Shown: positions 9,289-24,879 of the stretch, piece after piece
Numbering within the stretch: position 1 is the stretch's first letter
Layout of the letters: the number at the start of each line of letters is the position of its first letter
Position numbers and translations under genes: made by a program
The notes under the pieces: generated by a model
Seen by the model: the letters and a program-made list of their open reading frames with translations, nothing else
Databases searched by the model: none
What the model was told of the DNA's origin: nothing
NCBI RefSeq assembly: GCF_003860345.1
Contig: NZ_CP034179.1
Location: 1,844,001 to 1,908,000, forward strand
Direction: 5' to 3'
Source of the DNA: Caenibius tardaugens NBRC 16725
Lineage (GTDB): Bacteria; Pseudomonadota; Alphaproteobacteria; Sphingomonadales; Sphingomonadaceae
DNA length: 64,000 nt

Positions 9289-11220
9289 ATGGGGATAGGA
9301 TGGTCCCGCCTGCTTGCAGCCGCAGCCGCACACGGCCACAATCGCGGGGTGACTGGCAAATTTGCGACCCTCTCTGGCGATGCCAATGTGAAAGCCGTGC
9401 TTGGGCCGACCAACACGGGCAAGACCCATCTGGCAATCGAACGGCTTTGCGCGCATTCCAGCGGGGCCATTGGCTTCCCGCTGCGGCTGCTTGCCCGCGA
9501 GGTCTATGACAAGGTCTGCGCAATCAAGGGACCGAAAGAGGTCGCGCTGATCACCGGAGAGGAACGCATAGAGCCCCCCGGCGCGCGCTGGTTGCTGTGC
9601 ACGGTCGAAGCCATGCCGCGCGATACCGAGGAACGGGCCTTTGTCGCGCTCGATGAAGTGCAACTCGCCGCAGATCGCGAACGCGGGCATATTTTCACGG
9701 ACCGGCTGCTCAATGCGCGGGGACGCGAGGAAACCATGCTGCTTGGCTCCTCCACCATGGAGCCGATGATCCGTTCGCTTCTGCCCGAAGCCGGGATCAC
9801 CACACGCCCGCGCTTTTCCACATTGCGCCACGCGGGTGCCGCCAAACTGTCACGTCTCCCGCCGCGCAGTGCCATCGTCGCCTTCTCCGCCGAACAGGTC
9901 TATGCAGTGGCCGAAATGCTGCGGCGGTTCCGCGGTGGTGCGGCAGTGGTCATGGGCGCGCTCAGCCCGCAGACCCGCAATGCCCAGGTCGCCCTGTTCC
10001 AGTCGGGCGAAGTCGACTATATCGTCGCGACGGATGCGATCGGCATGGGCCTCAACCTTGACGTCAGCCATGTCGCCTTCGCCGGGCTGTCCAAGTTTGA
10101 CGGTGTGCGGCAACGGCGTCTTACCCCTGCGGAAATGGCCCAGATCGCAGGCCGGGCCGGGCGCCACCAGAAAGACGGGACATTCGGCACCCTGTCGGGC
10201 GGCGGACGCGACGTGGCCTTCACCGATGAAGAAGTCTACGCGATCGAGGAACACCGCTTCGCCCCGATCAGCCACCTGTTCTGGCGCGATGGCGATCCCC
10301 GCCATGACAATCTCGATACCCTGATCGCCGATCTGGAAGCCAAACCCGGCGAGCCTGGCCTTGTCCCCGCACCCGAAGCGATCGACCTTGGCGTGTTGAA
10401 ACGACTGGCCGAAGAACCCGAGATTGCTGCAGGCGTCACCTCTCCGGCGCTGGTTGCGCGCTTCTGGGATGTCTGTTCGCTGCCCGATTTCCGGCAACTC
10501 GGCATCGAAAACCACGCACGGTTCGTGGCACGGCTGTGGCAGGATCTGCGCAGCGGTGACCTCGGCAGCGATTATGTGGCCGCACGGATCGCGGAACTCG
10601 ACAAACCGGATGGAGACATCGATACACTGCAAGGGCGGATCGCGGCGATCCGCAGCTGGGCCTATATCTGCCAGCGCCCGGACTGGGTACTGGCCAAGGA
10701 GGAAATGGCTGCACGGGCGCGCGCGGCAGAAGCGCGCCTGTCGGATGCATTGCACGGGCGCTTAACCGAGCGTTTCGTCAATCGTCGGACTGCGGTACTG
10801 ATGAAAACTATGGGTAAGGATGCAAATTTGTTGCGGGTAGAACTGGCCGAGGACGGCGCGGTATCGGTCGAAGGCGAAGTGATCGGCCATCTCGATGGGT
10901 TCCGGTTCGTGGTCGATGCCAGAACCGGTCATGATGATCGAAAACTGCTGCTGGCGGCGGCGGAACGGCACATGCCCGAATTGCTCGCGCAAAAGGCCGG
11001 ACACCTGATTGCCAGCCAATTCGGCGAACTGACTATCGAACGCGGCGAGATTCTGCGCGGTGAACAAGTGGTCGCGGTTCTGCGGGAAGGCAAGGCCATC
11101 GCCGCCCCGCGCATCGAACTGGCCCGCGAACTGGCTGCACTTGCGCCTGTTCAGCGCACGCAACTTGCCGAAGCGCTGGACCTGTGGCTGGCGCGCGAAC
11201 TGGCCCCCCTTGCCCCCTGA
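9289..11220 (+). CDS. SUV3-like ATP-dependent RNA helicase, N-terminal part (frameshifted gene)
   Basis: 643 residues up to an in-frame TGA. Helicase motifs are intact: Walker A LGPTNTGKTH near 45, DEVQ (motif II, FVALDEVQLA), GSSTM (motif III) and a second RecA domain ending in QIAGRAGRHQKDG (motif VI). These fit the mitochondrial SUV3/alphaproteobacterial group that unwinds RNA for degradation. The frame stops at LARELAPLAP, where homologues as I recall them continue; the next frame continues with LTKLEEAARDP, so the gene extends to 11861 with a one-base shift at the C run 11213-11217. The ATG at 9289 gives an unusual N terminus; a GTG at 9349 just before the helicase domain is an alternative. 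Confidence 0.85.
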   Translation: MGIGWSRLLAAAAAHGHNRGVTGKFATLSGDANVKAVLGPTNTGKTHLAIERLCAHSSGAIGFPLRLLAREVYDKVCAIKGPKEVALITGEERIEPPGARWLLCTVEAMPRDTEERAFVALDEVQLAADRERGHIFTDRLLNARGREETMLLGSSTMEPMIRSLLPEAGITTRPRFSTLRHAGAAKLSRLPPRSAIVAFSAEQVYAVAEMLRRFRGGAAVVMGALSPQTRNAQVALFQSGEVDYIVATDAIGMGLNLDVSHVAFAGLSKFDGVRQRRLTPAEMAQIAGRAGRHQKDGTFGTLSGGGRDVAFTDEEVYAIEEHRFAPISHLFWRDGDPRHDNLDTLIADLEAKPGEPGLVPAPEAIDLGVLKRLAEEPEIAAGVTSPALVARFWDVCSLPDFRQLGIENHARFVARLWQDLRSGDLGSDYVAARIAELDKPDGDIDTLQGRIAAIRSWAYICQRPDWVLAKEEMAARARAAEARLSDALHGRLTERFVNRRTAVLMKTMGKDANLLRVELAEDGAVSVEGEVIGHLDGFRFVVDARTGHDDRKLLLAAAERHMPELLAQKAGHLIASQFGELTIERGEILRGEQVVAVLREGKAIAAPRIELARELAALAPVQRTQLAEALDLWLARELAPLAP

Positions 11221-11861
11221 CCAAACTGGAAGAAGCCGCGCGCGATCCTGCGGCGGGTTCGGAAGTCCGCGCCCTTTTGCTGTCAGTCATCGCCGGACGC
11301 GGCGTTATTGCACGCGAACGCACGGGCCTCGCCCAAGTGCCTCAGGAACGGCGGCGCGAACTGCGCAAACTGGGGGTCACGATCGGCGCGCTGGATATTT
11401 TCGTGCCAGCACTGCTCAAGCCCGCACCGCGCAAGTTGTTGCGCGCGATCGGGGCTGACCGCCGATTCCTGCGCGAAGACATGGCCAGCGTCATCCCCGG
11501 CGGCCAGAAACTGCCCGCCGGATATCGCCATGCCGGAAAACAGGCCATTCGGGTCGATATGGCCGAAAAACTGTTTCGCGCCGCCCATGAAAGCCGCGGA
11601 TCGGGCAGGAAACGCTTCATCGTGGATGCCGCGCTCGGTACATCGATGGGCCTCGCCCCGGGCAGCTTCGTGCGGTTGATGCGCGAGGCGGGTTTCCGCA
11701 AAATACCTGCGCCAGTGCTGCCGGAAGGGGCCTTTGGCCCGCCACAGCCCGATCTGTGGGAATGGCGTGCCCCACGCAAGGATCAGCCCGCCGCCCGCAA
11801 ACCCGAAGCAGCGCCACGCGAAGGCAACGCCTTTGCCGCCCTGGCCGATCTTATGCGGTAA
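11184..11861 (+). CDS. C-terminal part of the SUV3-like helicase (other frame)
   Basis: Reading continues in the -1 frame from 11217 and gives about 215 residues that belong to the helicase gene upstream. They include RRRELRKLGVTIGALDIFVP, ALLKPAPRKLLRAIG, and LPAGYRHAGKQAIRVDM, blocks I recognise as the conserved C-terminal region of alphaproteobacterial helicases of this type. The ATG at 11184 lies inside the upstream frame and is unlikely to be a true start. Either one C is missing in the run at 11213-11217 (mutation or sequencing error), or the ribosome slips back one base at CCC before the UGA. The tail is Lys/Arg/Ala-rich. The S4 gene follows after 11 bases. Confidence 0.7.
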   Translation: MAGARTGPPCPLTKLEEAARDPAAGSEVRALLLSVIAGRGVIARERTGLAQVPQERRRELRKLGVTIGALDIFVPALLKPAPRKLLRAIGADRRFLREDMASVIPGGQKLPAGYRHAGKQAIRVDMAEKLFRAAHESRGSGRKRFIVDAALGTSMGLAPGSFVRLMREAGFRKIPAPVLPEGAFGPPQPDLWEWRAPRKDQPAARKPEAAPREGNAFAALADLMR

Positions 11862-11872
11862 GGCGGGCCCCG

Positions 11873-12193
11873 GTGCGAATCGACAAGTTGTTGTGGTTTC
11901 TTCGTTTCGCCAAAACCCGGGGGCTTGCCCAGAAATGGGTGAAAGAAGGGCATATCCGCCGCAACAGCAAGCGGGTCGAACGGACGGATCAGCCCACGGC
12001 AATGGGCGATATTTTGACATTGCCCCTGCGCGGTGGAGTCGTTGTCATAGAATTGCTGGCCTTGCCCACACGCCGCGGACCGGCTTCGGAAGCGCGCGAA
12101 TGCTATCGCGTGCTTGACGGCGCCACCGACTTCGCCATAGCAGGGCAACGAAATGAACTGCCCGAAGGGCCTGAAGGGGATTACCGTCAATGA
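11873..12193 (+). CDS. S4-domain RNA-binding protein (Hsp15-like)
   Basis: 106 residues with a GTG start at 11873, preceded by AAGGCGGG. The N terminus [16 protein letters not shown], then [18 protein letters not shown] form the S4 RNA-binding motif as in Hsp15, which binds free 50S subunits carrying nascent chains. A short C-terminal region ([18 protein letters not shown]) follows. Longer frames upstream belong to the helicase region. Its last bases ATGA overlap fdxA by 4 bases, so helicase, S4 protein and ferredoxin form one unit. Confidence 0.87.
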
Positions 12194-12528
12194 CCTATGT
12201 CGTCACCGATGCATGCATCAAGTGCAAGTATATGGACTGCGTAGAAGTCTGTCCGGTCGATTGTTTCTATGAGGGCGAGAACATGCTCGTCATCAACCCC
12301 AGCGAATGCATCGATTGCGGCGTCTGCGAACCCGAATGCCCTGCAGAAGCGATTCTGCCCGATACCGAGAACGGTCTCGAACAATGGCTGGAACTGAACG
12401 CCAAGTATTCGGCGGAATGGCCGAATCTCACCAGCAAGCGCGATACGCCAGCCGATGCTGACGATTTCAAGGGTGAAGAAGGCAAGTTCGAGAAGTACTT
12501 CTCCGCCGAGCCCGGCGAAGGCGACTGA
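12190..12528 (+). CDS. fdxA: Ferredoxin FdxA (7Fe/8Fe type)
   Basis: 112 residues, the usual FdxA length. Two cluster motifs are visible: [18 protein letters not shown] at the N terminus and [15 protein letters not shown] near residue 40, followed by the FdxA-specific C-terminal extension ([16 protein letters not shown]). It transfers electrons in the cytoplasm; its partner is not known. The gene starts in a 4-base ATGA overlap with the S4-domain gene and is followed by 284 bases without a gene before carD. Confidence 0.93.
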
Positions 12529-12550
12529 TCCCCAAATTACCCCATACATT

Positions 12551-12623
12551 CCGGTGCGAAAGCACCGGAGCGCTATTGGTCTGCACACTTCCTTGCGGCG
12601 ATTCTTACGCGAATCGCCCAAGG
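12551..12623 (+). other. Two hairpins in the fdxA-carD gap
   Basis: The first hairpin is CCGGTGC-GAAA-GCACCGG (12551-12568), a 7-bp stem closed by a GNRA tetraloop. The second (12591-12604 with 12611-12623) has a 13-bp stem with one bulged base and a 6-base loop. Neither has a T run. A TATATA at 12649-12654 lies just downstream and could belong to the carD promoter. The rest of 12529-12812 shows nothing I can assign. Confidence 0.5.
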
Positions 12624-12812
12624 GGTAGTAATTTTCGCTGAAATTCGCTATATACGCCTTGACTGCCACGGATTTCCCGTCGCGCAGCATGTGACACAAG
12701 GCAGGCAAGGACCCCCAGCGAAACGTGAACACACACCCGGCCGTGCTGTCGCCACGGTCGTTTGTGCGCTTCACTGTCCCGCACCGGCCCTTCCGGTAAG
12801 AAAGGACGTTAC

Positions 12813-13346
12813 ATGGCAGGCAAGGCTCCCGCCTTCGATGTTGGTGACTATGTCGTTTATCCCAAGCATGGCGTAGGCCGTGTTATCGAACTGCAAAGCC
12901 AGGAAATAGCCGGCATGCAGCTTGAACTGTATGTGCTTCGTTTCGAAAAAGAGCGGATGACGCTCCGCGTGCCGGTCAACAAAGTTGAAGCGATCGGTAT
13001 GCGCAAACTTTCCAGCGACAAGACGCTGAAAGAAGCGATGGAAACGCTCAAGGGCAAACCCAAGGTAAAGCGCACCATGTGGTCGCGCCGCGCCCAGGAA
13101 TACGAAGCGAAGATCAATTCCGGGGATCTGGTTTCGATTGCCGAAGTGACGCGTGATCTGTTCCGTCCGGATGATCAGCCGGAACAGAGCTATTCGGAAC
13201 GGCAGATTTTCGAAGCGGCATCCAGCCGTCTTGCGCGTGAACTGGCCGCGATGGAAAAAACCGACGAGCCGGCTGCGCTGCAGAAGATTCTGGCTGTGTT
13301 GAACGAACACGCCCCCAAATATTACGAGAACGCCGAAACCGCCTGA
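12813..13346 (+). CDS. carD: CarD family transcriptional regulator
   Basis: 177 residues. The N-terminal DVGDYVVYPKHGVGRVIEL begins the Tudor-like RNA polymerase-interacting domain of the CarD/CdnL/TRCF family, and the C-terminal helices contain RDLFRPDDQPEQSYSERQ, which resembles the DNA-binding part. CarD binds the RNA polymerase beta subunit and stabilises open complexes at rRNA and other housekeeping promoters. The ATG at 12813 has AAAGGA about 6 bases upstream, and the longer frame back to 12762 has no homology. A terminator follows at 13373. Confidence 0.93.
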   Translation: MAGKAPAFDVGDYVVYPKHGVGRVIELQSQEIAGMQLELYVLRFEKERMTLRVPVNKVEAIGMRKLSSDKTLKEAMETLKGKPKVKRTMWSRRAQEYEAKINSGDLVSIAEVTRDLFRPDDQPEQSYSERQIFEAASSRLARELAAMEKTDEPAALQKILAVLNEHAPKYYENAETA

Positions 13347-23812: not shown

Positions 23813-24076
23813 CTAGCCGTCTTTCTTTTTGCGTCCGGTTGCGCCCTGCGCAAATGCTGCCCCACCTTCAAGGATGTTCTGGAACATCTTGAGTCCCATT
23901 TGCCCCATGGGGGCCCATTGCTGGGAAAGATCGTTGAGCTGTTCAAGGCTCGTAACACCTTGCAAAGCTTTGGAAAGATTATCGACATAGAGGGCGTTGA
24001 CCTGGCTTACATCAGGCAATCCCAGAAATGCCCGCGCTTCTTCCGGCGTGCAATCGATCTCGATATTTACTTTCAT
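23813..24076 (-). CDS. DUF6489-type small conserved protein
   Basis: 87 residues from the ATG at 24076. The N terminus MKVNIEIDCTPEEARAFLGL and VSQVNALYVDNLSKALQG look like a small alphaproteobacterial family that I associate with DUF6489, with no known function; this family name is from memory. The C terminus is basic (GATGRKKKDG). The gene precedes mnmE by 53 bases on the same strand and is divergent from the dienelactone hydrolase gene. Confidence 0.65.
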   Translation of the reverse strand: MKVNIEIDCTPEEARAFLGLPDVSQVNALYVDNLSKALQGVTSLEQLNDLSQQWAPMGQMGLKMFQNILEGGAAFAQGATGRKKKDG

Positions 24077-24180
24077 GGACACCCCTCGTGGCGCAATCTG
24101 CAAGGAACCTGTCACACGGCCTTGGCAAAGTCCATCATCGACGCTTAAATTCAGGCGAAACCACTTTGGAGAGCCCCCAC

Positions 24181-24879
24181 ATGACCCAGACAATCGCGAT
24201 TCCCGAACTCGATGGTGACGGTGCAGTTCCGGTCTATGTTGCGCGGCCCGCCGGCACACCACGCGCGGCGATCATCGTCATTCCCGAAATCTTCGGCGTG
24301 AACCCCGGTATTCGTCAGAAATGCGATCACTGGGCAGAACGTGGCTATCTTGCGGCCGCACCGGATATCTTCTGGCGGTTCGCACCAGGCGTGGAACTGG
24401 ACGCCGACGTGGACGAACAACTTCAGGAAGCATTCGGTTATTTTGCACAATTCGATGCCGATCTGGGCGTGAAGGATATCGAAGCACTCATCCGGTATCT
24501 GCGGGCCAAGGAAGGTACGGAAAAAGTCGGACTGGTCGGTTACTGCCTCGGCGGGCGTATGGCCTATCTCGCCGCTGCACGGACTGATATCGATGCCAGC
24601 GTCGGGTACTACGGTGTGATGATCGATCAGATGCTCAATGAATCGCATGCGATCGCCAATCCGCTGATCCTGCACATCGCAGGCGATGACGGCTTCGTCC
24701 CGGCGGACGCGCAGAAAGCTATCCATGAAGGTCTCGATACCAACCATCATGTGACGCTGTACGACTATCCCGGCCTCGATCACGGGTTCGCCGCGGAAAT
24801 GGGAAATCGTCGTGATGAAGCAGGCGCACAGCTTGCGGACAGCCGGACTGAGGCTTTCTTCGTGGAGCAACTTGGCTAG
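24181..24879 (+). CDS. Dienelactone hydrolase family protein
   Basis: 232 residues. The alpha/beta-hydrolase triad is visible: Cys122 in VGYCLGGRM, Asp170 in IAGDDGF and His201 in GLDHGF. IIVIPEIFGVNPGIRQKCDH is the family's N-terminal block. Dienelactone hydrolases open lactones in chlorocatechol breakdown, but many paralogues have other ester substrates, so the substrate is not known. TTGGAGAGCC lies upstream of the ATG at 24181. The next gene begins 14 bases after its stop. Confidence 0.87.
   Translation: MTQTIAIPELDGDGAVPVYVARPAGTPRAAIIVIPEIFGVNPGIRQKCDHWAERGYLAAAPDIFWRFAPGVELDADVDEQLQEAFGYFAQFDADLGVKDIEALIRYLRAKEGTEKVGLVGYCLGGRMAYLAAARTDIDASVGYYGVMIDQMLNESHAIANPLILHIAGDDGFVPADAQKAIHEGLDTNHHVTLYDYPGLDHGFAAEMGNRRDEAGAQLADSRTEAFFVEQLG

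Follow-up and report, generated by a model that had tools for sequence, protein, structure and literature searches.

A Suv3-like RNA helicase gene of Caenibius tardaugens NBRC 16725 is split into two reading frames by one missing base, and sequence comparisons suggest that this base was probably lost to a sequencing or assembly error, the under-calling of a G/C homopolymer. In the proposed course of events, a short run of C would have been under-called during sequencing or assembly, which would have dropped one base and created an apparent frameshift; in the living organism the helicase is probably encoded by one uninterrupted reading frame. The gene lies in a window of 64,000 nucleotides, the whole stretch of DNA analyzed, which is part of a single-contig genome of 4.36 Mb.

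On its domain and structure matches, the gene is a predicted RNA helicase and an alphaproteobacterial homologue of mitochondrial Suv3/SUPV3L1. Its N-terminal part contains the Pfam domains DEXQc_Suv3 (PF22527, the DEXQ-box RecA1 domain; E 2e-25, 89.6 bits against a cut-off of 27) and Helicase_C (PF00271, the RecA2 domain; E 4.6e-12), and a PDB search with this part matched the Suv3 helicase 6f4a (2.6e-36) as well as human SUPV3L1. The gene thus has the same two domains as the mitochondrial Suv3/SUPV3L1-like SF2 RNA helicase, from which it differs only by the frame break in the assembly; the C-terminal 214 residues gave no significant match in the PDB, but they are common to relatives. Read through the break, the gene would encode an unremarkable Suv3-like RNA helicase with a length of about 857 residues. 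Literature searches returned methods papers, and none that deals with this helicase in bacteria. Downstream of the gene (window 11873-13346) lie genes for an S4-domain RNA-binding protein, a 4Fe-4S ferredoxin with DUF3470 and a CarD-family regulator, and an M23 peptidase gene is located upstream on the minus strand. The neighborhood is ordinary housekeeping.

The N-terminal frame ends with GAA CTG GCC CCC CTT GCC CCC TGA, and the second half of the helicase is offset by -1, which corresponds to the lack of one base. The sequence-only reading had described this split and its -1 continuation at two runs of C, and both runs lie where it placed them, with the downstream frame (ORF 11184-11861) free of stops before 11861. 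Its further claim that the downstream frame encodes the conserved C-terminal region was borne out by a protein-guided codon alignment with 22 relatives. None of the 22 has a gap at the joint, the C-terminal 214 codons match over their full length, and the two halves abut exactly, the N-terminal frame ending at alignment column 1212 and the C-terminal frame beginning at column 1213. This alignment also located the absent base, exactly one, in the codon preceding TGA. The coordinates of the two halves, of the runs and of the other lesions described below are listed in the table.

Features of the split helicase gene (window coordinates) and the other one-base losses found in the genome (G000:C1 coordinates)
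Feature	Position	Strand	Description
Suv3-like SF2 RNA helicase, N-terminal 643 codons (643 aa)	9289..11220	+	Stop TGA at 11218-11220; Pfam and PDB matches
C6 run, in frame, just upstream of the joint	11204..11209	+	Alignment in register throughout, so the break lies elsewhere
C5 run at the joint, apparent deletion site	11213..11217	+	One base fewer than in all aligned relatives
Helicase C-terminal 214 codons plus stop, -1 frame	11217..11861	+	Full-length match to relatives; dN/dS ~0.12 against congener G002
purU-like formyltetrahydrofolate deformylase	G000:C1:2413645-2413668	-	One base lost at a C run; last 40 residues in another frame
828-aa molybdopterin-binding oxidoreductase	G000:C1:2351820-2351842 and 2352683-2352703	+	One base lost at each of two C runs
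S49 signal-peptide-peptidase-like protease gene	G000:C1:2704289-2704308	-	One base lost at a G run
TauE/SafE permease gene	G000:C1:2739678-2739698	+	One base lost at a G run

We searched the family for homologues and found one in 292 of 298 genomes, with one open frame in every best match listed. The other three species of the genus each carry a single open frame of 882-1009 aa that runs uninterrupted through the joint; the congeners compared include Croceicoccus estronivorus (NZ_JRQQ01000005.1) and Novosphingobium sp. STE_139. Among the strong matches listed, two pieces in two frames were found only in the genome of the window. Five family genomes yielded two matches each, and none of them showed a frame split at the joint; their second matches were a contig break, a weak distant match or a piece in the same frame. 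The draft genome G119 also has a homologue split close to this point (L153, L157), the pieces being on different contigs and one of them at a contig edge, which looks like an assembly break. These comparisons indicate that the helicase break, as read from the sequences at hand, is private to this genome and either recent or artefactual.

The same data bear on the idea that the halves are two separate proteins, the C-terminal ORF being translated alone, for example from the GTG at 11184. An open frame with such a start does exist, but the continuous frame in every family best match listed, the five two-match genomes without a frame split at the joint and the failure of the Pfam search to find any family covering the C-terminal part alone make this idea all but untenable. 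The sequence-only reading had proposed a comparison with related genomes, which returned single frames throughout the best matches listed and no relatives with two separate proteins.

That reading had also suggested a -1 slip at CCC-UGA, in which the P-site tRNA-Pro slips back by one base on CCC before UGA, so that a programmed or tolerated event yields both truncated and full-length helicase. Re-pairing on CCC is possible within the run and would yield exactly the protein of the relatives, and the C-terminal frame is conserved. However, a stop or frame change at the joint occurs in none of the 22 aligned relatives, T GCC CCC before TGA is not an X XXY YYZ slippery heptamer, and the RNA downstream is no more strongly folded than its shuffles (z 0.16; 108 of 200 shuffles do equally well or better). 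Transcriptional slippage typically involves runs of at least eight nucleotides (PMC3711429), longer than the five here, and the same type of lesion is present in unrelated genes of this genome. Slippage at this joint is therefore extremely improbable.

We examined the base composition of the codon at the break, which is CCG in 13, CCT in 4, CCC in 3, CCA in 1 and GCC in 1 of the 22 relatives, and CCG in two of the three congeners. Since most relatives have CCG, a G may have been lost. The earlier claim of a lost C thus holds as to the loss of exactly one base, which may have been either C (C6 to C5) or an interrupting G.

The age of the lesion was assessed from substitutions on both sides of the joint. 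The N-terminal part has 27 nonsynonymous and 67 synonymous changes specific to this lineage, the C-terminal part 14 and 25, respectively. For the latter, pairwise dN/dS was 0.122 against the congener G002 and 0.09-0.13 against relatives, no higher than the 0.135-0.155 between intact gene pairs. Neither measure gave any sign of relaxed selection or decay in the C-terminal part of the helicase, and this half is still under purifying selection. These results suggest either a very recent origin of the lesion or no real lesion at all.

A real lesion would be a recent one-base deletion in the strain that truncates the helicase after residue 643, leaving a young pseudogene or a partly functional protein. 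This is the main rival to assembly error. In its favor, the break is confined to this genome, a young lesion would not yet show decay, and no intact second copy of the helicase was found in the genome. Against it stand the retention of the gene in nearly the whole family and, as described below, five additional lesions of this type, two of them in one gene, all of which would also need to be real. We consider such a deletion unlikely.

To survey the genome for other one-base lesions, 1.32 Mb of sampled stretches were compared with the matching stretches of G002, covering about 213,000 aligned residues (137,457 + 75,764), although some of the counted ORFs are shadows. The first two rounds produced many false candidates from antisense shadow ORFs, and a filter on third-codon-position excess removed most of them; a frame change was accepted only when the excess was present on both sides and inspection agreed. 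The survey yielded six one-base deletions in five genes, the helicase included. No other intact close copy of the purU-like deformylase was found in the genome. At each of the six sites a run of 4-5 C or G remains, on either strand, and the 1.32 Mb contained no confirmed insertion and no confirmed lesion at an A/T run, although the sample has 1013 A/T runs of at least five bases, against 1976 of G/C. Deletions placed at random would leave at least 4 G or C in a row at the junction in 4.9% of cases, and the chance of six of six at such runs is about 1e-8, or 3e-7 with the five genes as units, which indicates that the lesions are homopolymer-linked.

Several candidates were set aside. The one at window 23994-24876 is a shadow ORF, its first piece being antisense to the upstream gene and its second a dienelactone-hydrolase-like gene with its own ATG, and a candidate in a DnaB-like gene (o603) was dropped because it sits at the gene's 5' end, before the conserved part. 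A candidate at about 1780188-1782265 of G000 (o69/o209) had a weak codon signal and was left out of the lesion count. In the reverse direction, no lesion in G002 was confirmed; the script gave one candidate per data set, and neither resembles a lesion, one being a short antisense-type ORF and the other a weak 5' extension of 47% identity. A short ORF at about G000:C1:1709553-1709873 is 100% identical to G002 but in two frames, which may reflect either a mobile element or a single-base difference.

No global collapse of homopolymers in the assembly was seen: the run-length spectra were normal, with 210 G/C runs of six per Mb here and 208 in the congener. The assembly is thus good, and under-calls would be only occasional (6 lesions for 1976 G/C runs of five or more).

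We favor assembly error for the helicase because five further one-base losses occur at G/C runs in the same assembly, and sequencing error, one of the causes named in the sequence-only reading, is the best supported of them. The helicase lesion is private to this assembly and located at a homopolymer, as seen in the family search and the alignment with 22 relatives. A set of deletions only, at G/C only, linked to homopolymers and spread over several conserved genes is what residual base-calling error looks like, with decay tested for the helicase only, and from these sequences we infer that the losses are most likely technical rather than real mutations. Genuine slippage mutations likewise prefer homopolymers. 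At some sites another base stands within the congener's run (CCG, GGC), so that the genuine loss of a single base is just as parsimonious in these cases. That all six lesions are real, with the strain tolerating many homopolymer frameshifts through a replication-slippage mutator phenotype or through frequent slipping of ribosome or polymerase at G/C runs, is very unlikely.

Taken as an assembly error, the break no longer counts as a candidate case of translational recoding, and a pseudogene call for this conserved RNA helicase would be false; without reads, it should be annotated as neither. It also flags the assembly: G/C-run losses break other genes, and further frameshifts in it are suspect until reads are checked.

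Deletion errors in long-read assembly peak after four to five identical bases (PMC12007338), and Antonov et al. expected unclustered, BLASTp-validated frameshifts to be sequencing errors and not genuine indels (PMC3711429). The lesions described here resemble the gene-fragmenting homopolymer errors of the former study and the singleton frameshifted genes of the latter in being one-base deletions at runs of four to six, and they are likewise unclustered, leave the downstream frame intact and occur at several sites in one assembly. In contrast to a raw long-read draft, the lesions in this genome are much rarer (5 genes in 1.32 Mb) and confined to G/C runs.
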